26,625 nucleotides of DNA from a virus: positions 1 through 26,625 of IMG/VR virus record IMGVR_UViG_3300030117_004072; one strand, written 5' to 3'. Positions within the stretch are counted from its first letter, which is position 1. The number at the start of each line of letters is the position of its first letter. Of this stretch, positions 140 through 20,103 are shown piece by piece. The notes under the pieces were generated by a model. It ran no database searches. It saw nothing but the letters and a program-made list of their open reading frames with translations, and had not been told where the DNA came from. Both the position numbers and the translations under genes were made by a program.

Positions 140-781
140 ATGACAGAACAGAAAGTAAACAAAAACTACAATGTTGCAATGGCTCAAAAAATTGAGCTTT
201 GGGATTTAGAAAGGTTGCAACCTTATGAAAAAAATGCAAGAGAACATAGCGAAAAACAGATTGCACAAATAGCAGCAAGCATTGTTGAATTTGGTTTTTT
301 GAATCCTATTTTAGTTGATAGTGATGACGGCATTGTCGCTGGTCATGGTCGGCTGTCTGCTGCAAAAGAATTAGCTTTAGAAGTAGTGCCTGTTGTCGTT
401 TTAGATCATTTAACCGAAAATCAAAAAAAAGCATATATTCTTGTTGATAATAAATTAGCGGAAAATGCTACATGGAATGAAGAGTTGCTTGCTGAAGAAG
501 TAATCAAATTAAACTTGCAAGACTTTGACTTAAATATTTTGGGCTGGACAGAAAATGAGTTAAAAGAAATTATGGAATATGAAGATGATTTTGATGATGG
601 TATTAATGCAACTGATGGTAGTGATGAATTAGACCAAGCAGATACTATGGTCGTTGTAGGTGGATATAGATTTAAACTACCAAGAGAACATTACATGAAA
701 TGGCGGGATGAAATTAGGGCAGATGTAGGTTTTGAAGAAAGTGATGTAAATGCCGAAATTCAAAGGAGGTTAGGTTTTTAA
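140..781 (+). CDS. ParB/Srx-like N-terminal domain protein
   Basis: This 213-aa protein has a ParB/Sulfiredoxin-type domain at residues 18-105, with the hallmark GHGR at 68-71 following a beta-strand rich segment (LNPILVD, DDGIVAGHGR). In many proteobacterial phages and prophages this domain is fused to an adenine-specific DNA methylase, and the run 'DHLTENQKKAYILVDNKLAENATW' region (88-112) is typical of those fusions. Here the methylase is absent. The remainder (113-213) is acidic and unrecognised. The stop codon overlaps the next start as TAATG. An internal Met at residue 14 is an alternative start; the ATG at 140 is preferred because AGGAT lies 7 nt upstream. ParB-like folds can bind or hydrolyse CTP or cleave DNA; the role here is unknown. 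Confidence 0.82.
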   Translation: MTEQKVNKNYNVAMAQKIELWDLERLQPYEKNAREHSEKQIAQIAASIVEFGFLNPILVDSDDGIVAGHGRLSAAKELALEVVPVVVLDHLTENQKKAYILVDNKLAENATWNEELLAEEVIKLNLQDFDLNILGWTENELKEIMEYEDDFDDGINATDGSDELDQADTMVVVGGYRFKLPREHYMKWRDEIRADVGFEESDVNAEIQRRLGF

Positions 782-2310
782 TGACTATTAAGTTAGTGGG
801 GTTAGATGACCTTAACCCCTCCGCATATAATCCTAGAACGGCTGACCCAAAAAGACTAGATATTATTGAACTAAGTTTACGAAAACTAGGATTTGTTTTA
901 CCAGTTTTTGCAGATGCGGAAGGCGAGATATTAAGTGGACACCAAAGACATTTAGTTGCATCAAGAATGGGTTTAAAAAAAATTCCTGTTAGTTTTACAA
1001 AACCACTTGAGTTAAATATAAGAAAATCAATCAACATTGCATTTAACAGAGGAACAAATGACATGGCTGCTGTTGACACCCCAGCATCATTAACTGAAGC
1101 ATTACAAAAAGCAGATGTGTTTGGTCTTGCACAAAAGCTGCCAGATTTGAGCAATGAGGAAATAGAAAAAAGATGTATGAACACAGTTACAAAAAACGTA
1201 AAAGAGCTAACAAAAATAAATAATGGTCGTTGGGTTCAATATGCAAAAAACGCAGCAAGGTCATTAAATAATCATGGAGTCACAATGCCTATTATTTGCA
1301 CAGAAGATGGAATGGTTGTAAATGGATTAGGTCGTTTAGAATTAGCTGCTGAAAAAGGACATAAAACTGTAGAAGTTGTTTATATTACTGAACTTGAAAA
1401 AGAATTTACTTTTGCCATGTTGAACTATTTAACTATGGATTTTAATATTCACGAAAGATATGAGGATATGTTGAGATACAACAGTTTTCGTAGAGCAATG
1501 GCTATTCGTGACTATTTAGGCAGATGTTTTACTTTTGCAATACTGGGAAGAAAATCAAGCAATACATTTGATGTAACAAAACCTAAAAGCAAAAAATTTT
1601 GGATAAAAAATTATGGTTCAACAGTTTTAGATTTTGGTGCGGGATTATTAAGCGAAACAAAACTACTGCAAAGTGTTGGAGTTGATTGTGTACCGTTTGA
1701 GCCGTTTAGATTAACAAAAGGCACATCAGATATTGATAGAGATTTAAGTATAGATACAACAAAAAAATTTTTAGAAAGAGTTGCAAGTGGAGTTGAATTT
1801 AATTCAATATTTTTAAGTGCAATTATGAACAGTGTTCCTTTTTACCAAGATAGGGTTCATATTTTAAAAATTATTGCATCTTTATGTAGTCCTAAAACAA
1901 AAGTCTTTGCGGTCAGTGCATCAACAAAACAGGCGGGTTATAGATTAACAAGTGGTGCTGAATTTATAAACAGGCAAGATAGCAGCCGTTTACAATTTAG
2001 ATTAGATTATGAACCCAGAATAACTATTGCAGATTTTACGGCAGTTCCAAAGGTACAAAAATATCACACACCAGAGGAATGGTACGAGCTTTGGAAGTCA
2101 CAATTTGAAAAGGTAAAAGTTACAGAAAGTGCAAATAATGTTGAATGTATCGCAATAAAAGCGAGGTCAGTAAACCATGAAGAATTAAGTCAGGCACTAG
2201 CATTTGAGTTCAATTTGCCCTATCCTAGTGGTAAGAGGATGAACTTAGTAAACGAAGCTATTACTGCCTTTAGCCAAAGATTGCAGTGCGAACTGCCTAG
2301 CCCAAAATGA
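781..2310 (+). CDS. Two ParB-like domains fused to a methyltransferase-like domain
   Basis: The 509-aa protein appears to have three parts. Residues 5-75 form a ParB-like domain with GHQR at 53-56. Residues 140-205 look like a second, divergent ParB-like copy with NGLGRL at 181-186 in the GxxR position. Residues about 278-460 resemble a class I SAM-dependent methyltransferase: VLDFGAG at 282-288 fits motif I and E307 fits the ribose-binding acid of motif II. Target-recognition or catalytic motifs such as DPPY or NPPF are not seen, so the base or substrate cannot be assigned. The gene overlaps the previous one by 1 nt and the next by 4 nt (ATGA), implying co-translation. It could act in DNA modification or in regulating packaging; this is inference. 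Confidence 0.7.
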   Translation: MTIKLVGLDDLNPSAYNPRTADPKRLDIIELSLRKLGFVLPVFADAEGEILSGHQRHLVASRMGLKKIPVSFTKPLELNIRKSINIAFNRGTNDMAAVDTPASLTEALQKADVFGLAQKLPDLSNEEIEKRCMNTVTKNVKELTKINNGRWVQYAKNAARSLNNHGVTMPIICTEDGMVVNGLGRLELAAEKGHKTVEVVYITELEKEFTFAMLNYLTMDFNIHERYEDMLRYNSFRRAMAIRDYLGRCFTFAILGRKSSNTFDVTKPKSKKFWIKNYGSTVLDFGAGLLSETKLLQSVGVDCVPFEPFRLTKGTSDIDRDLSIDTTKKFLERVASGVEFNSIFLSAIMNSVPFYQDRVHILKIIASLCSPKTKVFAVSASTKQAGYRLTSGAEFINRQDSSRLQFRLDYEPRITIADFTAVPKVQKYHTPEEWYELWKSQFEKVKVTESANNVECIAIKARSVNHEELSQALAFEFNLPYPSGKRMNLVNEAITAFSQRLQCELPSPK

Positions 2311-2780
2311 ACAAAATTATTTTACTTGACCTTAATAGCACATACGCTGAAAATGCGATGCAAGTTCATATTATGCGTAAAGGTATTTATAACGTAAATA
2401 GTGAATTTTATAGAAAGTGGCTTACAAGTTTATTGCGAAAGTATAAAGTCGTTATGCTTACAAGTAGACCCGAATACTATAAAACACAAACCTTAAGACG
2501 TATTAAGGATTTAGAAAAATGGCAACCAGATAACGCTTACTTCAATAAATGGCGATTACCAGCACCAACAGCAAAAGAAAAAATGCTCCATGATTATGTA
2601 TGGCCTGAGTATGGTTACATGGAAGAAACAGAATACATTGCCATTGAAAGTAATTACAAAACTCAAGATATGTTTAGAACACATGGCATCAACGCATATA
2701 CACAGCAAGAAATATACAAAAGTCCACAATTATTAGATGGTGGCAATGCAACAGGCACAAATTTAGAACTAAATTTATGA
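2307..2780 (+). CDS. HAD-like phosphatase-fold protein with altered motif I
   Basis: This 157-aa protein resembles the HAD superfamily. The N-terminus KIILLDLNST (3-12) fits motif I, with D8 as nucleophile, but the usual second Asp is N10. LTSRP (51-55) fits motif II, K90 or K92 may be the motif III lysine, and IAIESN (111-116) sits where motif IV acids usually occur, keeping only one Glu. Phages encode related small proteins, sometimes annotated as polynucleotide kinase 3'-phosphatase-like. The substitutions make classical phosphatase activity uncertain; it may bind nucleotide or use a variant mechanism. The gene overlaps both neighbours by 4 nt (ATGA). Confidence 0.6.
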   Translation: MNKIILLDLNSTYAENAMQVHIMRKGIYNVNSEFYRKWLTSLLRKYKVVMLTSRPEYYKTQTLRRIKDLEKWQPDNAYFNKWRLPAPTAKEKMLHDYVWPEYGYMEETEYIAIESNYKTQDMFRTHGINAYTQQEIYKSPQLLDGGNATGTNLELNL

Positions 2781-3430
2781 AAATACCTAGCGATTGGACA
2801 TTTGAAACAAAAGAGGTCGCCACAAAATTTGACCGCCATGTTCGTGAGCAGTTGCCATTTTATGAACTTGCGACAAATGCAATAGGTCATGTTGCCAGAC
2901 ATTACATACCAGAAAATGGATTAATTTATGACTATGGTGCAGCTACAGGAAATATTGGCAGAACACTTGCACCGATATTAAAAAAAAGAAATGCAAATCT
3001 AGTAGGCATTGAACCTTCGCAAGCAATGATTGATATTTATGATGCACCTGGCGATGTGATTTGTTCAAAAGCAGAAGATTTTATACCAGAAAACTTTGAT
3101 TTAGCGATATTATTTCTAACTTTGATGTTTGTTGAACCTTGCAAAAGACTTAGATTAATGAAATTACTGCGAAATAAGTGCAAATTAGGCGGTGCTATTG
3201 TTGTTTTTGACAAATTAGAGCCAATTAGCGGTTATCCAGCAACAATTTTTTACAGATTAACTCTTGCGGGTAAAAAAGCTGCTGGAACTGACGCAAACGA
3301 AATTATTGAAAAGGAATTAAGCTTGAGTGGGGTACAAAGACCAATTACCGAATATCAATTAGGTGGAGATAGTCATTTGTGGTTTAAATATGGCGATTTC
3401 GGTGGTTGGTTGATTGAAAAAGAGGTTTAA
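2777..3430 (+). CDS. Class I SAM-dependent methyltransferase, CmoA-like
   Basis: The 217-aa protein has a class I methyltransferase fold. Motif I is YDYGAATGNIG (51-61), followed by an acidic residue at E79 (VGIEPS). The N-terminal arrangement (W7-T-F, ATKFDRHV, PFYE, then about 20 residues to motif I) recalls CmoA, the carboxy-SAM synthase of tRNA wobble-uridine modification, and its phage homologues. The phage substrate is not evident. No membrane segment is seen. It overlaps the HAD-like gene by 4 nt and ends 3 nt before the small terminase gene, so it probably belongs to the same transcript. The methyltransferase fold is confident; the precise reaction is not. Confidence 0.75.
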   Translation: MKIPSDWTFETKEVATKFDRHVREQLPFYELATNAIGHVARHYIPENGLIYDYGAATGNIGRTLAPILKKRNANLVGIEPSQAMIDIYDAPGDVICSKAEDFIPENFDLAILFLTLMFVEPCKRLRLMKLLRNKCKLGGAIVVFDKLEPISGYPATIFYRLTLAGKKAAGTDANEIIEKELSLSGVQRPITEYQLGGDSHLWFKYGDFGGWLIEKEV

Positions 3431-3934: not shown

Positions 3935-5801
3935 AGACCTAATTAAAGATTGCATAAATTGTTTGCAATTTGAAGAACCTTTGAATGTAAGTCAATGGTC
4001 AGAAAGGCATAGAGTATTAAGTTCAAAAGCCAGTAGTGAACCTGGTCAATGGAAAAATAAAAGAACACCATATTTAATTGAACCTATGGATTGTTTGTCA
4101 ACGGATAATCCTATACAACGTGTCGTTTTACAATTTGCATCGCAACTTGGAAAAACAGAATGTGGGTCAAATTGGCTCGGCTATGTTATAAGTCATTCGC
4201 CAGGTGCAATGTTGATGGTTCAACCTACTTTAGAAATGGCAAAAAGATTAAGTAGACAAAGGTTAGAAGGGCTTATTAATGAAACACCAATTTTGGCAGA
4301 TTTAGTTGCACCTTCACGAAGCAGAGATAGTGGAAATACAATGTTTTCAAAAGATTTTCCTGGCGGAATAATGGTTTTGACAGGAGCAAACTCAGCAGTG
4401 GGTTTACGTTCTATGCCTTGTCGCTATATTTTTATGGATGAAATTGATTCATTTCCAAGTGACCTTGATAACGAGGGAGATGCTGTAAGCCTTGCAGAAA
4501 AAAGAAGTATGACATTTAGTAGAAGAAAAATATTATTAACATCTACACCAACTATTAGAGATTTAAGTCGTATTGAACAAGAGTATTTAGAAAGTGACCA
4601 AAGACGTTATTATATTCCTTGCCCTTTGTGTGGCGAATATCAATATTTAAAATGGTCACAAATTAAATGGGAGGACAATAACCCGAAAACTGTTAAATAT
4701 GAATGTGAACATTGCAATGAAAAATTTGAAGAAAAACATAAGCCAAGATTTTTAGAAAAAGGAGAATGGCGAGCTACTGCTCCAAGTGATGGTAAAACTG
4801 CTGGATTTCATTTAAACGGACTATATTCTCCATTAGGTTGGAAAAGTTGGGAAGAAATCGTAAGCGATTTTATTAAAGCAAAAAGTGATGCTCCTAGACT
4901 AAAAAGTTTTGTGAACACAGTACTGGGAGAAACTTGGGAAGAAGATTACGCAGCTAAAGTTGGTACAGATGTACTAATGGAAAGGGTTGAGTCTTATGAG
5001 TCTAATTTGATACCAGAAAAAGCTGTAATACTGACAGCAGGGGTTGACGTACAAGATAATAGACTTGCGGTATCTGTTTGGGGTTGGGGTCGTGGCGAAG
5101 AAGGCTGGCTTATAGACCATCAAGAAATTTATGGCGATCCTGGCGGAATGGAATTATGGAAACAATTAGATCAACTATTACTTAGACCTTTTAGGCATGA
5201 ATTAGGAAATCAATTTAAACCAGATATAATTGCTGTTGACTCAGGTGGTCATTTTACTTCAGAAGTTTATGCCTACACTAGAGATCGCAGAAAGCATGGT
5301 GTCATTGCGATCAAAGGTGCGAGTATAAAAGATAAACCTCCAATAGGCAAAGGAAAAAAATTAGATTTAAACTGGAAAGGCAGAACAATAAAACAGGGTG
5401 CTGAATTATTTACAGTTGGAACAGATACAATAAAAACAACATTATTTTCAAGGTTACGTCATAATGATGTTGGGGCGGGTTATCTTCATTTCAACGTAAA
5501 TGCAGATGAAGAATATTTCAAACAATTAACAGCAGAAAAACAGGTTATTAGATATGTAAAAGGTTTCCCAGTTCGTGAGTGGGTTAAGAAATCTTCAGCT
5601 AGAAACGAAGCTCTTGACACGCTTGTTTATTCTTATGCAGCACTTCATAGACTTTATCAAAAGCGAGATAGAAGAACAATTTGGGATAATTATGAAGAAA
5701 GAGGGCGAATTAAGGGCAAAATAAAGGATGATAAGACCTATTTAGATGAGTTAAGATATAAAAAGAAGGCTCAAAAGCCTAAATTCGTTTCTCAATGGTA
5801 A
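3921..5801 (+). CDS. terL: Terminase large subunit, GpA family
   Basis: This 626-aa protein is the packaging motor of the lambda GpA type. The conserved N-terminal W-S-E-R-H-R and PGQW (26-44) are followed by a Walker A-like SQLGKTE (74-80), Walker B FMDEID (171-176) and coupling motif TSTPT (207-211). A four-cysteine cluster (C234, C237, C262, C265) resembles the zinc-ribbon-like insertion of this family. The C-terminal nuclease is marked by GVDVQDNR (D376), AVDSGG (D440) and NEALDT (D566). Length is normal for the family. Translation starts at TTG with a strong upstream GGAGGGG and overlaps the small subunit by 14 nt. Lambda-type GpA enzymes usually cut at cos sites, but no cos site is recognisable here. 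Confidence 0.95.
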   Translation: MTLVKDLIKDCINCLQFEEPLNVSQWSERHRVLSSKASSEPGQWKNKRTPYLIEPMDCLSTDNPIQRVVLQFASQLGKTECGSNWLGYVISHSPGAMLMVQPTLEMAKRLSRQRLEGLINETPILADLVAPSRSRDSGNTMFSKDFPGGIMVLTGANSAVGLRSMPCRYIFMDEIDSFPSDLDNEGDAVSLAEKRSMTFSRRKILLTSTPTIRDLSRIEQEYLESDQRRYYIPCPLCGEYQYLKWSQIKWEDNNPKTVKYECEHCNEKFEEKHKPRFLEKGEWRATAPSDGKTAGFHLNGLYSPLGWKSWEEIVSDFIKAKSDAPRLKSFVNTVLGETWEEDYAAKVGTDVLMERVESYESNLIPEKAVILTAGVDVQDNRLAVSVWGWGRGEEGWLIDHQEIYGDPGGMELWKQLDQLLLRPFRHELGNQFKPDIIAVDSGGHFTSEVYAYTRDRRKHGVIAIKGASIKDKPPIGKGKKLDLNWKGRTIKQGAELFTVGTDTIKTTLFSRLRHNDVGAGYLHFNVNADEEYFKQLTAEKQVIRYVKGFPVREWVKKSSARNEALDTLVYSYAALHRLYQKRDRRTIWDNYEERGRIKGKIKDDKTYLDELRYKKKAQKPKFVSQW

Positions 5802-6385: not shown

Positions 6386-7858
6386 ATGGCTTGGCATACT
6401 CCTTTTACTAGACTTTTTACTCAAGAGCAAAAAGTACAAAAATTAAAAAGACGCAGATACGCAGGGGCAGCAATTTCACGTTTAACTGATGGATGGGTCA
6501 CAGGTAACACTTCAGCAGATGCGGAAATTAAGACGAGTTTACGCAAATTAAGAGATCGTAGCCGTCAATTATGCCGAGATAACCCCTATGCAAAGCAAGC
6601 TAAGAGAACAACACAAATAAATGTTATTGGTCAGGGTGTAAAACTTCAATGCTTAGTTCCAGCTATTAGAGGTGGGAAAAAAGATAAAAAATTAAGCATG
6701 ATGATTGAAAAAGCATGGAGAGAATGGTGTAAAAGAGATCATTGTGATGTTTCTGGTCAAAAAAGTTTTTTTATGTTGGAAAACATGATGGTTGGAGCTT
6801 TAGTTGAGAGTGGTGAGGTATTTTTTAGAATTGTTAGAAAGAAATTTGGCAGAAGTAAAGTAGGACTTGCTTTAGAGATTATTGAAGCTGATTTATGTGA
6901 TGACGAATATCAAGGAAAAGTTTTACGAAAAGGCAATGAGTGGAGAATGGGTATCGAAGTTGATAAGTTTGGAAGGCCACAACGATATGCTTTTCTAAAT
7001 CGACATCCTGGCGATTATTGGTTTCAAGATGCTTATGTTGATAAAAGACATACAATAATTAATGCAAATGAAATAATCCATTTATTTTTACCAGAAAGAC
7101 CAGGTCAAAATCGTGGTGTTCCATTTTTTAGCTCAATAATGGATGATATGCACCAACTCGCTGGTTATGAAAGTGCAGCCGTCATTCGTGCGAGGGCAGG
7201 GGCTTCATTAATGGGTTTCATAAGTTCAAGTGAAGGCGAGCTTGAAGCTGATGATGTAGAAGCAGAACAAAGACTTACAGATTTTGAAGCTGGAGTTTTT
7301 AAATATCTAAATCCTGGCGAAGAAATAACAGTTCCAAATATAAGCAGTCCTGACGCACAATATGAAGGTTTTGTGAGAGCAAAAATTAGAAGGTTTGCAT
7401 CTGGTTTAGGTTGCAGTTATGAAACTATAAGTCGTGATTTTAGTGAAACAAATTACAGTAGTTCACGATTAAGTTTGCTTGAAGATAGAGAACATTGGAA
7501 AATGCTTCAAACATATTTTGTAGAGAATTTTCATCAACGTATTTTTGAAGAATTTTTAGATGCTGCCGTTTTATCAGGAGTTTTAAAATTACCAGATTAT
7601 GAGTTAATGCCAGAAAGGTATTTATCTCCAAGATGGCAGACAAGAGGTTGGAGTTGGGTTGACCCTAAAAAAGAAATTGAAGCATTTAGACTTGGAGAAG
7701 CTGCTGGATATTATACGAAGTCACAAATAATGAGTATGTTAGGAAAAGATTTTGATGATAACGTAGATCAAATTAGGGCAGAAAAAGAAACTTTAAAGGA
7801 TGCTGGAGTACAATTAGACCTTGATTTAGACGGTTCAACGGCAATTAGTGGAGATTAA
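6386..7858 (+). CDS. Portal protein, lambda gpB family
   Basis: This 490-aa protein is a lambda-type portal. The N-terminus has the family's 'R.R...RDNPYAKQA....I.VIGQGVKLQ' pattern (about 55-90), followed by W-x-x-W-C helices, then IIHLF.PERPGQNRGVPFFS (about 232-250) and 'GLGCSYETISRDFSETNYSSSR' type residues (about 345-366), which are conserved in portals of this class. It should form the dodecameric vertex for DNA entry and tail attachment. It lacks the C-terminal C/Nu3 protease-scaffold arrangement of lambda; the protease here lies in the downstream fused gene. Its TAA stop shares the TTAA palindrome with the stop of a convergent small gene. AGAGG precedes its start at 6386. Confidence 0.95.
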   Translation: MAWHTPFTRLFTQEQKVQKLKRRRYAGAAISRLTDGWVTGNTSADAEIKTSLRKLRDRSRQLCRDNPYAKQAKRTTQINVIGQGVKLQCLVPAIRGGKKDKKLSMMIEKAWREWCKRDHCDVSGQKSFFMLENMMVGALVESGEVFFRIVRKKFGRSKVGLALEIIEADLCDDEYQGKVLRKGNEWRMGIEVDKFGRPQRYAFLNRHPGDYWFQDAYVDKRHTIINANEIIHLFLPERPGQNRGVPFFSSIMDDMHQLAGYESAAVIRARAGASLMGFISSSEGELEADDVEAEQRLTDFEAGVFKYLNPGEEITVPNISSPDAQYEGFVRAKIRRFASGLGCSYETISRDFSETNYSSSRLSLLEDREHWKMLQTYFVENFHQRIFEEFLDAAVLSGVLKLPDYELMPERYLSPRWQTRGWSWVDPKKEIEAFRLGEAAGYYTKSQIMSMLGKDFDDNVDQIRAEKETLKDAGVQLDLDLDGSTAISGD

Positions 7859-8028
7859 GGCTTTTCTTTAAGCCATTGATCTAAAAAATATTCTTTTAAT
7901 GCTTGTTTCCTTTCTTCTCGTTTTTTCTCTGCAATAATATGCAAACGTAAACTTCTTAAAAAGTTCATTCGTGCAAAATGGGTCATGTTTTGCCAATTTG
8001 TTTCAGCTACTCTTACAAAATCATCCAT
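7855..8028 (-). CDS. Small basic helical protein (57 aa), hypothetical
   Basis: A complete minus-strand ORF of 57 residues starts at ATG (8028-8026), overlapping the stop of the upstream minus gene as TAATG, and ends at TAA (7857-7855). It begins MDDFVRVAET, contains FARMNFLRSLRLHII, a charged run EKKREERKQALKEYF and ends in KEKP. Predicted structure is mostly helix, with no signal peptide or membrane span. It is the third gene of the minus-strand cassette, and the coupled start supports it being real. Its stop overlaps the portal stop on the other strand. No family is recognised. Confidence 0.6.
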   Translation of the reverse strand: MDDFVRVAETNWQNMTHFARMNFLRSLRLHIIAEKKREERKQALKEYFLDQWLKEKP

Positions 8029-8381
8029 TATTTCTCTTCTTCACAATGCGGACAGTTTGGACTTACTAATTTTTTTTGCAATATGGAAGTTAAAAATAAA
8101 ATCGCAACCATAGAGGGCGGTTGTTCTTCGCCCTTAAACATAATTTTTACAGTGCTGTCTGGAAACTCAATACCGTCTTTAGTAACTAAAAAAGTATCGT
8201 CAGCATCTTCACTGTTTGGAACTTGGCTCACTAAGTAACAGCTTTCGCCATTACTCATTCTTACTCCTGTGGGTTTGTAATCCATAAAGTCCAAACCCAT
8301 TTCTGTTAATCCTGTTTCCAAATGTTTCATAAAATTAGTTGTATTTTTATGTGGATTAAATTTTGGCTCTTTGGTTGTCAT
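8028..8381 (-). CDS. Hypothetical protein of the minus-strand cassette (117 aa)
   Basis: The protein is unrecognised. Its N-terminal half is polar with a helix around residues 13-34; the centre (45-82) is predicted beta-rich (SCYLVSQVP, TFLVTKDG, STVKIMFKG); a hydrophobic helix follows (90-105); and the C-terminus ends with a CPHC pair and an acidic EEEK tail, which could bind a metal together with another site. The start is well supported: AGGAGGT on the minus strand at 8394-8388 lies 6 nt before the ATG. The gene starts directly after the DUF2786 gene's stop, with no gap, and overlaps the 57-aa gene by 1 nt, so the three genes probably form one operon. Confidence 0.72.
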   Translation of the reverse strand: MTTKEPKFNPHKNTTNFMKHLETGLTEMGLDFMDYKPTGVRMSNGESCYLVSQVPNSEDADDTFLVTKDGIEFPDSTVKIMFKGEEQPPSMVAILFLTSILQKKLVSPNCPHCEEEK

Positions 8382-9122
8382 TTAGCTACCTCCTAATCTG
8401 TAAGCTGCTCTGCCACTAACCTGTCTGTTAAGTCCTACGTTTCTTCCGTAGTTACCTCCACTGGTTGCACCTTGTCCTCCGCTTGTTGTATAACCTCCTC
8501 TAGTACCTACTCTTGGGTACTTCTGCTTTCTTAATGCAAGGCTAGTCTGTTTTTGTTTTTGGTCTTTGTCTTGTAAAGCTAAACCACTGACTTGTACATT
8601 GTTAATCACTGTACCCTCGCTTCTTTCTTGCTTTTTCATTTCGCTAAGTCTGTAAGCAACATTCAAAGCCCATGTTTTTCTAAAGCTGTAGTTAAAACAT
8701 CTGTCTGTAAATATTTGCTCTTTTTTAGCTTTTTTAAGGTCAACAAGTAACTGGTCTAATAAATATTCTGCATATAAAATAATTTGTATTTTGTTACCTC
8801 TAGTAGCAAAAATATCTATTTCGCCTTGTCCTGTTAATACTTCGCCATTAAAGTAATCAGCTACAGCTTGCACAATAGTCACAGTTGCAGGGTCAAGTCT
8901 TGTATTTTTTGTTCTGCCTTTGCTGTCAACATAAAGCCAATGCACTGCTTCGTCATCTTCTGGGTTATGGCTGTCTAAAGCAAGGGTGCGTTCTAGTTCT
9001 TGCAAAGTCATATTGTGCTTTGCAAGTTGTTCTTGTAACTTGCGTTCTGCAACTGCTTTTTCTCCAGCGTTTGTACTTTCTGTAAGTCTTAGTAACTTAC
9101 CTAAAAAGCTTGTGTCTCTCAT
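8382..9122 (-). CDS. DUF2786 domain-containing protein
   Basis: The 246-aa protein begins with a DUF2786-like helical domain (residues 5-48: LGKLLRLTEST...EKAVAERKLQEQLAKHNMTLQEL). A second domain follows at about 60-160 (DUF7168-like), containing W62, VQAVADYFNGEV and a helical LLDQLL...TWALNVAYRL region. The C-terminus (205-246) is Gly/Ser-rich and ends in GLNRQVSGRAAYRL, as in other members of this family. DUF2786 proteins are common in phages and bacteria but have no established function known to me. The gene lies first behind its own promoter, opposite to the structural genes, in the manner of a phage accessory gene (moron). AGGA lies 10 nt upstream of the ATG. Confidence 0.83.
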   Translation of the reverse strand: MRDTSFLGKLLRLTESTNAGEKAVAERKLQEQLAKHNMTLQELERTLALDSHNPEDDEAVHWLYVDSKGRTKNTRLDPATVTIVQAVADYFNGEVLTGQGEIDIFATRGNKIQIILYAEYLLDQLLVDLKKAKKEQIFTDRCFNYSFRKTWALNVAYRLSEMKKQERSEGTVINNVQVSGLALQDKDQKQKQTSLALRKQKYPRVGTRGGYTTSGGQGATSGGNYGRNVGLNRQVSGRAAYRLGGS

Positions 9123-9179
9123 TTTTTTAAGTCCTAACTTGGGGTTTACGGTTCGGGTATCGTTCCCTTACCTATTAAT

Positions 9180-9208
9180 AATATAGCATTTATATTAAAA
9201 AAGTGCAA
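9180..9208 (-). promoter_or_regulatory. Sigma70-type promoter of the minus-strand cassette
   Basis: Read on the minus strand, TTGCAC (9208-9203) is followed by a 17-nt spacer and TATATT (9185-9180), matching the -35 and -10 consensus well. The expected start of transcription is about 9173, giving a leader of about 50 nt before the DUF2786 ATG. The leader contains a GGGAA/TACCC imperfect inverted repeat and AAGTTAGGACTT close to the start codon. The plus-strand side of the same gap (9209-9260) holds only weak promoter-like A/T motifs for the capsid gene. Confidence 0.6.
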
Positions 9209-9260: not shown

Positions 9261-12161
9261 ATGGCAAATGTAAATGGAACAGAAATAGATTTATTTCCTA
9301 CAGAGGGCATGAAAACTGCTGCGAAAAGATATAAAAAATGGAAAAGCGAGGGCAAAGGTGGCGGAACTCAAGTTGCTGCTGTAAGAGCAACACAGATTAT
9401 AAGTGGCAGAGAATTATCAGTTGACGTTGTGATGCGTATGCACTCATTTTTTGCAAGACATGAAGTTGATAAGCAAGCTGAAGGATTTAACTCAGGAGAA
9501 AAAGGTTTCCCAAGTCGTGGAAGGGTGGCTTGGGATGCGTGGGGCGGGGATGCTGGTTTTAGCTGGAGCAAGCGTAAATCTGCTGCAATTAAAAAAGCAA
9601 GAGAAAGATTTGATAATGGAGAGTTTACTGAAGAAAGACCTTACCCAAATGAACACGCTGCTAGAATACGCAGACCAGAACAATATGATACATTTCGTAG
9701 AGTTGTAGATAGAGGCGGAGAGGGTATTGATTTTATTTTTGGTATAAAGGAAGATATAGATGAAGTTGAACTTCAATCTATAAGATTTAAACTTAGTAAG
9801 TTCTCTGCGGAGGAAGCTCGTACTTGGTTACAAGAAAATGAGTACAATGCTATTAAGTTTGAACCCGCAACTAACGAAAAAACTATGAAACAAAAATTAA
9901 TGGATTTGCCCCCAGAACAAAAAGCTGCACCTGACGAACTCAAAGTTGGAGATTTTGTTTCATGGAACGCTAGTGGTGGCAGGGCAAGAGGTGTTATTGA
10001 AAGAATTGAACGTGATGGACAAATTGACGTTCCTAGTTCTGAGTTTGTAATCAATGGTACTGCTGATGACCCTGCTGCTTTGATTTGTGTTTATAGAAAA
10101 GCAGCTAATGAAGCTGGTTATATCAAAACAGATATAAAAGTTGGTCACCGTTTCAGCACATTAACAAAAATTCAGCCTTTGCAACTAGCAGAGAGTTATG
10201 ACGAGTCAAGGCCGTACCATGATGACGATAAAAAGAAAAAAGATGAAGAAATATCACAATTTCGTAAATTAGACTTAAAAGAACTTAAGGCAAGAAATAA
10301 AGGCGAATCATTAATACAAACAAGAGAATTAAAAGCACAAATTGAGTCAGACGGAAAAGAACTTTATATGAGTTTTTCTTCTGAAGAGCCAGTGCAGCGT
10401 TATTTCGGTACTGAGGTACTTTCTCACGATCAGGGGGCTGCCGACCTATCACGTTTAAATAACGGAACAGCCCCTTTCCTTTGGAATCATAATCGTGACG
10501 AAGTTCTTGGTGTAGTTCAAAAAGCAGAAATTGGGGATGACAAAAGAGGTTATGCAACTGTTAAATGGTCAAGAAACCCAAATGCTGTAGAAAAACGCAC
10601 AGATGTTGAAGATGGCATAATTTCGCAAGTAAGTTTTGCATATCAAATAAACGAAATTGAAGAACGTGGCGATCAAATGGTCGTAACAAAATGGAAGGCT
10701 ATGGAAGTTAGCTTGGTTTCAGTGCCAGCAGATTCAACCGTTGGAGTAGGGCGGAGTATAGAAGAAGAGGATAGTATAGAAAGTAAGAAGGTTGCTGAGT
10801 CTCCTCCAAAAGATGATGCAACTGCTCTTGAGCAATCAAGAGAAGCTTTGACGGCTCAAGCTCCGTCATCTAGTCCAAATCTAACTTCCAAAAACATGGA
10901 GCAAAAACCAGAAACGGAAGCTGCAAGCAAAGCCGTTGAAGCAGAGCAAAAACGCAGTGAGTCCATAATTATTGCTGAAAGAAATCGCAGCAATGCGATT
11001 GCAGCAATGGGCGAGAAATATTCTTGCCCCGATTTAGCACACAAACTAAATCAAGAGGGTGCATCTGTTGAAGATGCCCGCCACGCAATCAACACATACA
11101 GGGAGGAACGTCTTAACACTGTGGAACAACATCAAATTCAAAAGTCACCAGAAATTGGCTTAGACCAAAAGGAAATCAAAAGATTTTCATTTACAAGAGC
11201 TTTAAATGCTTTAGCAAACCCAAGTGACAGGGCTGCACAAGAAGCTGCTGCTTATGAACGTGAAGTTTCTGAAGCTACATCAAAAGCTTACGGTAAGCCA
11301 GCAAGTGGAATACTTGTTCCTAATGAAGTGCTTTCAAGAGACCTAACTGTAGGTACTGCAACTGCTGGTGGAAACCTTGTTGCTACTGAACTATTATCTG
11401 GCTCATTTATTGACGTTTTAAGAAACCGCATGGCGGTTATGGCTACTAATCCAACAACTTTAACTGGATTACAGGGCAACGTATCAATCCCAAGAATGAC
11501 ATCAACATCCACAGGATATTGGGTAGGCGAGGGGTCAGCACCTTCAGAATCACAACAGGCTTTTGACCAAGTCAACATGACACCAAAAACTGTTGCTGCA
11601 TTTGTTGATTATTCAAGAAGATTATTACTTCAATCATCTATTGATGTCGAGTCAATGATTAGGGATGATTTAGCGAAGGTAATTGCTACAAAATTAGATC
11701 ATACAGCTATCTATGGTACTGGTTCTTCAAACCAGCCTTTAGGTATTAAAGATACAAGTGGTATCGGCTCACAAACAATAACAACATTTGGAACTTTTGC
11801 TGAGTATATCGGCATGGAAACTGATGTTGCTGCTGCTAATGCTGATGTTGCAAATATGTTCTACCTAATCAATGCTTCTGCTAGGGGTGCATTAAAGTCA
11901 ACTGAGGTTGCATCTAACACAGGTAAGTTCGTATTTGAAAACAACGAAATCAACGGCTATCCAGCTATCACTACAAACCAACTTGCAAACAATGATGCAG
12001 TGTTTGGAGATTTCTCTCAGTTTGTAATGGGCTTCTGGTCTGGTCTTGACTTAACTGTTGACCCATTCGCTGGAGCAACAAGCGGTAATGTAAGAGTTAT
12101 TGCACTTCAAGATGTTGATTTTGCAGTTAAGCAAGCTGGAGCTTTCTGTTTCGGTACTTAA
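9261..12161 (+). CDS. Prohead protease - scaffold - major capsid polyprotein with extra N-terminal domains
   Basis: One uninterrupted 966-aa ORF carries several head functions. Residues 14-115 contain a conserved phage segment around RMHSFFARHEVDK (58-71) and AWDAWGGDAGFSW (90-102). Residues 137-202 form a second region (QYDTFRRV, GIDFIFGIK, IRFKLSKFSAEEARTWL). Residues 226-304 look like a Tudor/DUF2945-type beta domain (GDFVSW, GGRARGVIERI, GTADDPAALICVYR). Residues 350-500 match HK97-family prohead protease, with H410 in LWNHNRDEVLG and S458 in QVSFAY as likely catalytic residues. A charged linker (500-560) and a helical scaffold-like part (560-640) precede an HK97-type major capsid protein (about 685-966), with GGNLVATELLSG and WVGEGSAPSES. 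No Shine-Dalgarno precedes the ATG. Confidence 0.92.
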   Translation: MANVNGTEIDLFPTEGMKTAAKRYKKWKSEGKGGGTQVAAVRATQIISGRELSVDVVMRMHSFFARHEVDKQAEGFNSGEKGFPSRGRVAWDAWGGDAGFSWSKRKSAAIKKARERFDNGEFTEERPYPNEHAARIRRPEQYDTFRRVVDRGGEGIDFIFGIKEDIDEVELQSIRFKLSKFSAEEARTWLQENEYNAIKFEPATNEKTMKQKLMDLPPEQKAAPDELKVGDFVSWNASGGRARGVIERIERDGQIDVPSSEFVINGTADDPAALICVYRKAANEAGYIKTDIKVGHRFSTLTKIQPLQLAESYDESRPYHDDDKKKKDEEISQFRKLDLKELKARNKGESLIQTRELKAQIESDGKELYMSFSSEEPVQRYFGTEVLSHDQGAADLSRLNNGTAPFLWNHNRDEVLGVVQKAEIGDDKRGYATVKWSRNPNAVEKRTDVEDGIISQVSFAYQINEIEERGDQMVVTKWKAMEVSLVSVPADSTVGVGRSIEEEDSIESKKVAESPPKDDATALEQSREALTAQAPSSSPNLTSKNMEQKPETEAASKAVEAEQKRSESIIIAERNRSNAIAAMGEKYSCPDLAHKLNQEGASVEDARHAINTYREERLNTVEQHQIQKSPEIGLDQKEIKRFSFTRALNALANPSDRAAQEAAAYEREVSEATSKAYGKPASGILVPNEVLSRDLTVGTATAGGNLVATELLSGSFIDVLRNRMAVMATNPTTLTGLQGNVSIPRMTSTSTGYWVGEGSAPSESQQAFDQVNMTPKTVAAFVDYSRRLLLQSSIDVESMIRDDLAKVIATKLDHTAIYGTGSSNQPLGIKDTSGIGSQTITTFGTFAEYIGMETDVAAANADVANMFYLINASARGALKSTEVASNTGKFVFENNEINGYPAITTNQLANNDAVFGDFSQFVMGFWSGLDLTVDPFAGATSGNVRVIALQDVDFAVKQAGAFCFGT

Positions 12162-18410: not shown

Positions 18411-19399
18411 GTACTGCTCCAATTATTACTGACCTCCAAAAGGTCAACCCTTCAGCAATTATTGAGCTTTTTGAAATAACACTTGATGCGAACCTTCATG
18501 GCTCAACACAAACTTATAGATTTCATAACGGTACAAGTCTTAATGCAAATGGCGATATTTTTTTTAATTCAAATCAATATTTAAAAATGCCTATAGAAGC
18601 AGATGGCTTTGCTTTTCAACGTGGTCAACTACCAAGACCAACATTAAAGGTCAGCAATGCACTTGGAACAATTACAGCAATCTTATTAAACGTAAATACA
18701 GTAACAAGAGGAAACGATCTTACAGGTGCAACGGTTACACGAATAAGAACACTTGCAAGATATTTAGACCATGTTAACTTTCCTGTCACAACAACCACTT
18801 CAACGACCACTGAAACCATTGCTGACCCTGCTGACGCTGAAACTGTCACATATACCGTCACAGTTGCGAATGTAGGCGGTTCAAATATTTTTCTTATAAA
18901 TGGAAGTAATAAGCCAGTTTTAACTATGAAACGTGGTTCAACATATATTTTTAATCAAGCTGATGCTTCAAATAGTGGACACCCTTTAGCAATAAAATCT
19001 GATGCGGGTGGAAGTCAAACAACCACTGTTTCTGGCACTGCTGGTCAAGCTGGTGCGACAGTTACCTATCAGCCAGCATATCCTTCAGCACCAAATGACC
19101 TTAGATATTACTGCACTGTTCATGGAAATAATATGGGAAATACAATAACAATGAATAATCCAAATACAACTACTCAAACGACAACAACAAGTTCAAGTCA
19201 GCAAGTTAATATATTTGGTACTCCTGACCCAAATGCTGAGTTTCCAAGAGAAATTTATAAAATTGACAGAAAATCATCAGAAAATAGAGAGCTTGTAGAG
19301 TTTGAATTGGCTGCTGTTTTTGATTTGGCTGGTATTCGTGCTCCTAAAAGACAATGCACTAGAGCAGAATTTCCATCAATAGGTACTTTTATTGGATGA
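18407..19399 (+). CDS. L: Minor tail protein L-like with inserted cupredoxin-like domain
   Basis: The 330-aa protein has gpL-type ends: residues 1-125 (DLQKVNPSAIIELFEITL, GFAFQRGQLPRPTLKVSN, then TRIRTLARYLD) and 268-316 (IFGTPDPNAEFPREIYKIDRKSSENRELVEFELAAVFDLAG..APKRQC). Between them, bounded by Thr-rich linkers (127-136 and 254-265), lies a beta domain (about 145-250) of cupredoxin type. Its H192 (GHPL), C236, H239 (YYCTVH) and M243 match the ligand order of a type 1 copper site. Only one cysteine (C317) remains near the C-terminus, where lambda gpL has a cysteine-rich iron-sulfur domain, so that domain seems missing. It overlaps both neighbours by 4 nt. Confidence 0.88.
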   Translation: MSTAPIITDLQKVNPSAIIELFEITLDANLHGSTQTYRFHNGTSLNANGDIFFNSNQYLKMPIEADGFAFQRGQLPRPTLKVSNALGTITAILLNVNTVTRGNDLTGATVTRIRTLARYLDHVNFPVTTTTSTTTETIADPADAETVTYTVTVANVGGSNIFLINGSNKPVLTMKRGSTYIFNQADASNSGHPLAIKSDAGGSQTTTVSGTAGQAGATVTYQPAYPSAPNDLRYYCTVHGNNMGNTITMNNPNTTTQTTTTSSSQQVNIFGTPDPNAEFPREIYKIDRKSSENRELVEFELAAVFDLAGIRAPKRQCTRAEFPSIGTFIG

Positions 19400-20103
19400 A
19401 CTGGAAAGAAGCTGCACTTGCACACGCAAAAGAACAAGACCCTAAAGAAAGTTGTGGTTTGTTGTTAAATATCAAAGGTAAAAAAAGATATTTTCCATGC
19501 AATAATCTTGCAATTTCGAATTATCAATGTTTTATTTTAGACCCTGTTGATTATATAAAAGCTGATAATACTGGCGAAATAATTGCAATAGTGCATAGTC
19601 ATCCAGTAACACCTCCCATAGCATCACAAGCCGACATGGTTTCATGTGAACAAAGTCAATTAGTTTGGTATATTGTTAATCCAAAAACAGAAACATGGGG
19701 CGAATACAAACCCTGTGGATTCAAACCTCCTTTGCGTGGTCGTGAATGGGTTTGGGGTGTTCAAGATTGCTATACACTTGTTCGTGATTGGTACAAAGAA
19801 GAAAAAAATATTATTCTTACAGATTGGGTAAGACCTACAACTTTAGAAGAATTTAACAAAAATCCTATGTTTGAAGCTTGTTATGAACAAACTGGTTTTA
19901 GAGAGTTAAATGCAGACGAAAAACTTGAAAATGGCGATTTACTTTTTATGTCAATTTTTGAAAAAGGTCTAAATCATGTAGCAATTTTTTTAAATGGCGA
20001 TGTTTTACATCATTTAACAGATAGACTAAGCTGTATAGAACCATATTCAAATTGGTTGCAAAAATGTACTGGTAAGAGGTTACGTTATGTTGCGAAAAAT
20101 TAA
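19396..20103 (+). CDS. K: Tail tip peptidase K-like: JAMM plus NlpC/P60 domains
   Basis: The 235-aa protein has two hydrolase domains. Residues 1-105 form a JAB/MPN+ domain with E18 (KESCGLL), H67-S-H69-P and S77-x-x-D80, a complete zinc-metalloprotease set. Residues about 112-235 form an NlpC/P60 domain with C125 (DCYTLVRDW), H194 (NHVAIFL) and H205/H206 as the likely catalytic cysteine, histidine and third polar residue. In lambda-like phages gpK acts at the tail tip, with a presumed role in peptidoglycan cleavage or tip processing. Both active sites look intact. The gene overlaps I by 17 nt, as in many lambda-like phages. Confidence 0.93.
   Translation: MNWKEAALAHAKEQDPKESCGLLLNIKGKKRYFPCNNLAISNYQCFILDPVDYIKADNTGEIIAIVHSHPVTPPIASQADMVSCEQSQLVWYIVNPKTETWGEYKPCGFKPPLRGREWVWGVQDCYTLVRDWYKEEKNIILTDWVRPTTLEEFNKNPMFEACYEQTGFRELNADEKLENGDLLFMSIFEKGLNHVAIFLNGDVLHHLTDRLSCIEPYSNWLQKCTGKRLRYVAKN

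Follow-up and report, generated by a model that had tools for sequence, protein, structure and literature searches.

A cassette of minus-strand genes between the portal and capsid genes of an uncultured phage is probably a unit for early transcription that sits in reverse orientation at a fixed place within the late operon of head genes; its products would act against host restriction or other defences, or adjust host functions. The window, that is, the whole stretch of 26,625 bases analyzed here (GC 36%), is a contig of an uncultured virus and holds the late operon, encoded on the plus strand, of a phage whose lambda-type portal is 47–51% identical to the portals of the Synechococcus phages S-CBS1, S-CBS3, and S-LBS1.

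The slot is flanked on the left by the portal gene (6386–7858, plus strand; PF05136, E 1e-99) and on the right by a protease–major capsid fusion gene (9261–12161, plus strand; PF04586 and PF05065). Between them, the three minus-strand open reading frames described in an earlier note on this DNA are in place: the cassette core gene, encoding a 246-aa DUF2786/DUF7168 protein in the form termed allele A (8382–9122; a phrog_421 profile match, E 2.6e-17, covers residues 9–240), a second core gene encoding a 117-aa protein that ends in CPHC (8028–8381), and a 57-aa basic ORF (7855–8028) occupying the variable position of the cassette. The coupling that the note had pointed out is also present in the sequence. 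The ATG of the CPHC gene abuts the DUF2786 stop codon and has AGGAGGT upstream, a TAATG overlap at 8028 provides the start of the 57-aa gene, and the stop of the latter overlaps the portal stop. No terminator-like site was found at the cassette end near 7855, the weak internal sites being about as numerous as expected by chance. Since a clear terminator is missing and the cassette stop overlaps the portal stop, transcription of the cassette and of the portal gene would be convergent.

Other parts of the window have features of their own. Two ParB-like genes, the second of them long (phrog_5475), and a tRNA-methyltransferase-like gene (phrog_4752) are located directly before the gene for the terminase small subunit (140–3430). 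The long capsid fusion (9261–12161) comprises a phrog_2859-like N-terminal region of about 120 aa, a weak Tudor-like stretch, the prohead protease, and the capsid; its N-terminal parts vary among relatives, and for S-LBS1 and L027 the alignment begins only at about residue 330–360. Moreover, a tail gene (19396–20103) combines Prok-JAB and NlpC/P60 peptidase domains.

A survey of 80 portal relatives delimits the slot. Where the portal is at least 81% identical to that of the window, a minus-strand island of about 1.0–2.3 kb occupies every visible portal–capsid junction, and where it is at most 68% identical, portal and capsid genes adjoin with no island, as they do in S-CBS1, S-CBS3, S-LBS1, and CRP-831. 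Two phages with portals 77% identical show both states, L026 carrying minus-strand genes that are unrelated but stand behind a similar promoter and L027 having no minus-strand island. Most islands end in a stop codon that overlaps the one of the portal gene, irrespective of the terminal gene. The DUF2786 gene lies beside the capsid gene and on the opposite strand at all 20 loci found in IMG/VR, with the portal gene on the other side wherever the contig reaches that far. This constant place at the portal–capsid junction could mean that the proteins are head-assembly or packaging factors. Nevertheless, such a role is very unlikely, since the cassette stands on the opposite strand with its own promoter, is missing from phages that have the same head genes, and exchanges its cargo for unrelated genes, while DUF2786 genes occur outside the head genes in other phages; a virion-assembly function deduced from position was rejected in view of the opposite strand and of the relatives that share these head genes but have no cassette.

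The layout agrees with the phage accessory, or moron-like, module proposed earlier in view of its own conserved promoter, opposite orientation, absence from distant relatives, and modular cargo. The two larger genes are neither scattered, unlinked, nor degraded in related genomes, where the first gene is linked to the slot in the same orientation in every case. In the part of PMC2784084 that deals with P-SS2 and cites Hendrix et al. 1999, a moron is a transcriptionally autonomous gene in the structural region of a phage. The cassette shares with morons a promoter of its own, the opposite strand, absence from otherwise collinear relatives, and exchangeability, but unlike them it comprises several genes, the first of which is constant, lacks a clear terminator, has a leader of early type, and shows no sign of prophage expression. 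A comparable arrangement is the inverted cluster gp05–gp17 of Pseudomonas phage PB1 (Pbunavirus), a lytic phage in which the DUF2786 gene (gp09; 4029–4808, minus strand) belongs to a cluster on the minus strand, located between the terminase and the head genes; however, this cluster has 13 genes, other neighbours, and a different junction, and belongs to an unrelated phage. Likewise, P2-like phages and P4-like satellites have variable hotspots of antiviral genes (PMC9122126) that combine a fixed locus and conserved flanks with exchangeable genes for host interaction, but those hotspots carry anti-phage defence systems, whereas no defence family was matched in the cassette and its promoter looks early.

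The protein encoded by the first gene does not reach the Pfam gathering cut-offs (18.4 versus 25.5 bits for DUF7168 and 16.5 versus 23.9 bits for DUF2786). A low-confidence AF2 model (pLDDT 58.6) matches DUF2786/DUF7168 phage proteins in BFVD, and this fold search supports the predicted kinship. No relatives of the protein were found among GenBank phages, where the product of the other allele had one weak match (pVco-14), nor were close relatives found in bacterial genomes, and a sequence search of solved structures gave matches at chance level only. The second protein has a CPxC motif near its C-terminus that is invariant in an alignment of 11 sequences and doubled in L019 to a zinc-ribbon-like pattern. 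Its AF2 model (pLDDT 85.8) gave nothing significant in a fold search, and GenBank phages contain no relatives. A DsbA-like redox function of the motif was rejected because of its extreme C-terminal place, a CPKC variant, and the doubling in L019, which make a zinc-ribbon-like role likelier. Searches of the window proteins gave no match in PADLOC and only chance-level matches in NCBIfam.

Compared with relatives, the window has dN/dS values of 0.04–0.21 for DUF2786 allele A and 0.16–0.26 for the CPHC gene, and these low ratios indicate functional protein genes under purifying selection. None of the fetched loci, in turn, contains a relative of the 57-aa ORF, and its weak Pfam hit (PoNi_C, E 0.014) lies under the cut-off as one of many chance-level hits; it is plausible as a gene, the coupling being the single argument. 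Thus, the three-gene unit described earlier is not conserved as such: the third ORF is an orphan and the set is not fixed. This orphan is what could be cited for a cassette of degrading or spurious ORFs without function, an explanation of negligible probability; for the two larger genes, dN/dS well below 1 and the conservation of promoter and hairpin described below largely refute it.

The content of the slot is modular. Besides allele A, which encodes 246 aa, the DUF2786 gene has an allele B of about 273 aa whose product is 37–40% identical to that of A. L007, with 89–90% identity to the window flanks, carries allele A, and L016, L019, and L024 have portals about 91% and capsids 86–91% identical to those of the window, yet carry allele B; at the DNA level, identity falls from 75–92% in the flanks to about 45–55% inside the cassette. 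As the sequences show, therefore, phages whose portal proteins are about 91% identical have exchanged two DUF2786 alleles. The order of the cargo is DUF2786 first, usually CPHC next, and then variable genes. The CPHC gene is missing in L004, L005, L018, L105, and L106, and L021 keeps it, although two different genes replace DUF2786 there. Further cargo encodes a zinc-ribbon-like protein of 63/64 aa and proteins of 90/95, 70/74, and 82 aa.

A further cargo is a Mom-family DNA modification gene (PF25680, E 2e-38; phrog_1384, E 9e-55; for Mom chemistry, see PMC7824862) in the operon of L016, L019, L024, and L098, which suggests a function of the operon in DNA protection in some relatives. The gene is absent from the window and most relatives. 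The cassettes of these four phages resemble the com–mom operon of Mu in containing a Mom-type gene, sometimes with a small zinc-ribbon gene adjacent. On the other hand, Mom is missing in the window, the com–mom operon of Mu includes neither DUF2786 nor CPHC, and the zinc ribbon of the cassettes does not match the Com family. The 63/64-aa zinc-ribbon-like protein is encoded at the end next to the portal gene in the cassettes of L003, L004, L005, L018, L024, and L105, standing directly beside Mom in L024, and it recalls Com, a small zinc protein with control over Mom in phage Mu. In other phages, DUF2786 genes lie beside DNA ligase and dexA (PhiW-14), beside a PurA-like synthetase and dUTPases (Ghobes), or among small genes (phiM12). 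PhiW-14 and members of the Queuovirinae such as pVco-14 have modified DNA, and this, together with Mom in the present group, hints by analogy at a possible role of DUF2786 in DNA protection and provides a lead.

The promoter that the earlier note assigned to the cassette is present and conserved in relatives. It consists of a -35 element TTGCAC (9203–9208), a 17-nt spacer, and an extended -10 element, TGC TATATT, with the -10 hexamer at 9180–9185 (whole element 9180–9208, minus strand). A simpler sigma-70 scan of the window gave matches not above chance, and the pattern TTG-N17-TGN-TATAYT has a single match in the window, the cassette promoter, against 0.06 expected; it is the extended -10 together with conservation in relatives that makes the promoter more than a chance occurrence. 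Promoter and gene start are kept in six relatives with the same DUF2786 allele, and the promoter stands upstream of the first gene in all islands, including that of L021 with its different first gene; the promoter of L026 has a form without TG.

The predicted mRNA begins with a hairpin, GGT-AA-GGG (AACGATA) CCC-GA-ACC (9150–9172, minus strand), identified by RNA folding of 21 leaders and an alignment of 18. In this alignment, 90.8% of cells pair, against 29–52% when the partner is slid by 1–3 columns, and two-sided changes occur at two pairs, although the 18 leaders are related sequences and the shuffle counts are not probabilities. The loop is conserved. The hairpin is followed by an ACCCC motif (9141–9145) and by AGGA (9132–9135), a Shine-Dalgarno-like sequence before the DUF2786 start, both on the minus strand. 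A covariance model of the leader found no other match of convincing score in the loci searched, and a pattern search of IMG/VR gave matches solely in front of this cassette.

Such a conserved 5' hairpin with a conserved loop, together with convergent transcription, overlapping stops, and the lack of a clear terminator, is also what might be expected of a regulatory device, in which convergent transcription, or a DUF2786 or CPHC regulator acting on the hairpin, delays the late genes and the cargo is secondary. This explanation is quite unlikely, since the hairpin is kept in L021 without DUF2786, an analogous hairpin exists in L026 without DUF2786 and CPHC, and the stems differ in the early-region leaders of a relative.

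These leaders were found in G005, a cassette-bearing relative of 49.8 kb and the one relative on which the early-region comparison is based. Its stretch L128 contains genes for exonuclease VIII, RecT, and SSB, and genes of recET/ssb regions are early genes. Between L128:6700 and 15500, early-region ORFs without a Shine-Dalgarno sequence are preceded by eight leaders composed of a promoter of the TTGCRT-N17-TATAYT type, a 5' hairpin, and ACAACCCC, the sequence in which the ACCCC motif of the cassette leader recurs. All eight copies of ACAACCCC in L128 belong to such promoter–hairpin modules, and the stem sequences differ among the eight. A Markov model predicts 0.1 occurrences of the arrangement up to the ATG for the eight seen, and a stricter descriptor gives 7 in L128 against 0.03 expected and 1 in the window, at the cassette, against 0.045, expectations that are optimistic because the descriptors were written after the first examples had been seen. 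The stronger argument is the contrast between early and late regions, as no promoter–hairpin–ACCCC module occurs in 29 kb of late region. Moreover, the gene that comes first in the cassette of L021 shares 71% identity with L128:13528–13728, which itself stands behind one such module. ACAACCCC with its promoter and 5' hairpin forms an apparently undescribed early-gene leader, the promoter–hairpin–ACCCC arrangement of which is shared by the cassette; a search of the collection for the pattern returned G005 and one chance hit only.

The leader also bears on a lysogenic-conversion moron, which would be expressed from a prophage while the late operon is repressed and could cause, for example, superinfection exclusion. 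Prophage-expressed morons typically have a promoter of their own and run in inverted orientation, and the related S-LBS1 is annotated with an integrase. However, this explanation is unlikely: no PF00589 tyrosine integrase was found in 12 contigs, which are fragments, no portal relative appeared in prokaryote genomes in a scan for close relatives only, and the promoter and leader match those of recombination and replication genes. Consequently, the lysogenic expression suggested earlier found no support, whereas the early expression and anti-defence function considered alongside it are indirectly favoured by the Mom cargo of four relatives and by the module common to the early region, in spite of the lack of a PADLOC match.

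In the early transcription unit that is preferred here, host RNA polymerase would read the cassette soon after DNA entry from the constant extended -10 promoter. Like the early-gene leaders of the relative, the transcript would open with a hairpin followed by ACCCC, and this hairpin may serve to protect or tune the message. The promoter would drive the DUF2786 core gene, usually the CPHC gene, and the exchangeable cargo, and the proteins of the unit would most likely act against restriction or another host defence, or adjust host functions. Later, plus-strand late transcription through the unit could silence it by antisense RNA or by collision, a step proposed because no terminator separates the unit from the portal gene. 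A bolder and rather doubtful extension is that promoter (TTGCRT-N17-TATAYT), 5' hairpin of free stem sequence, ACCCC, and ATG, in the early region without Shine-Dalgarno sequence, form a portable early-expression module. This would act as a docking unit: gene sets placed behind it would become early even inside a late operon, some phage or host factor not yet described recognizing a feature of its RNA or DNA. In this extension, DUF2786 and CPHC would be a new counter-defence pair.

The slot is fixed and easily searched, either by the portal–capsid junction or by the leader hairpin, and uncultured phages swap there genes that probably act on the host. Its association with Mom, a known type of anti-restriction gene, gives DUF2786, which is little mentioned in the literature searched, a testable context. 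Moreover, the repeated leader offers a handle on early-gene expression in this phage group, in which a unit of early type can sit embedded in a late operon.
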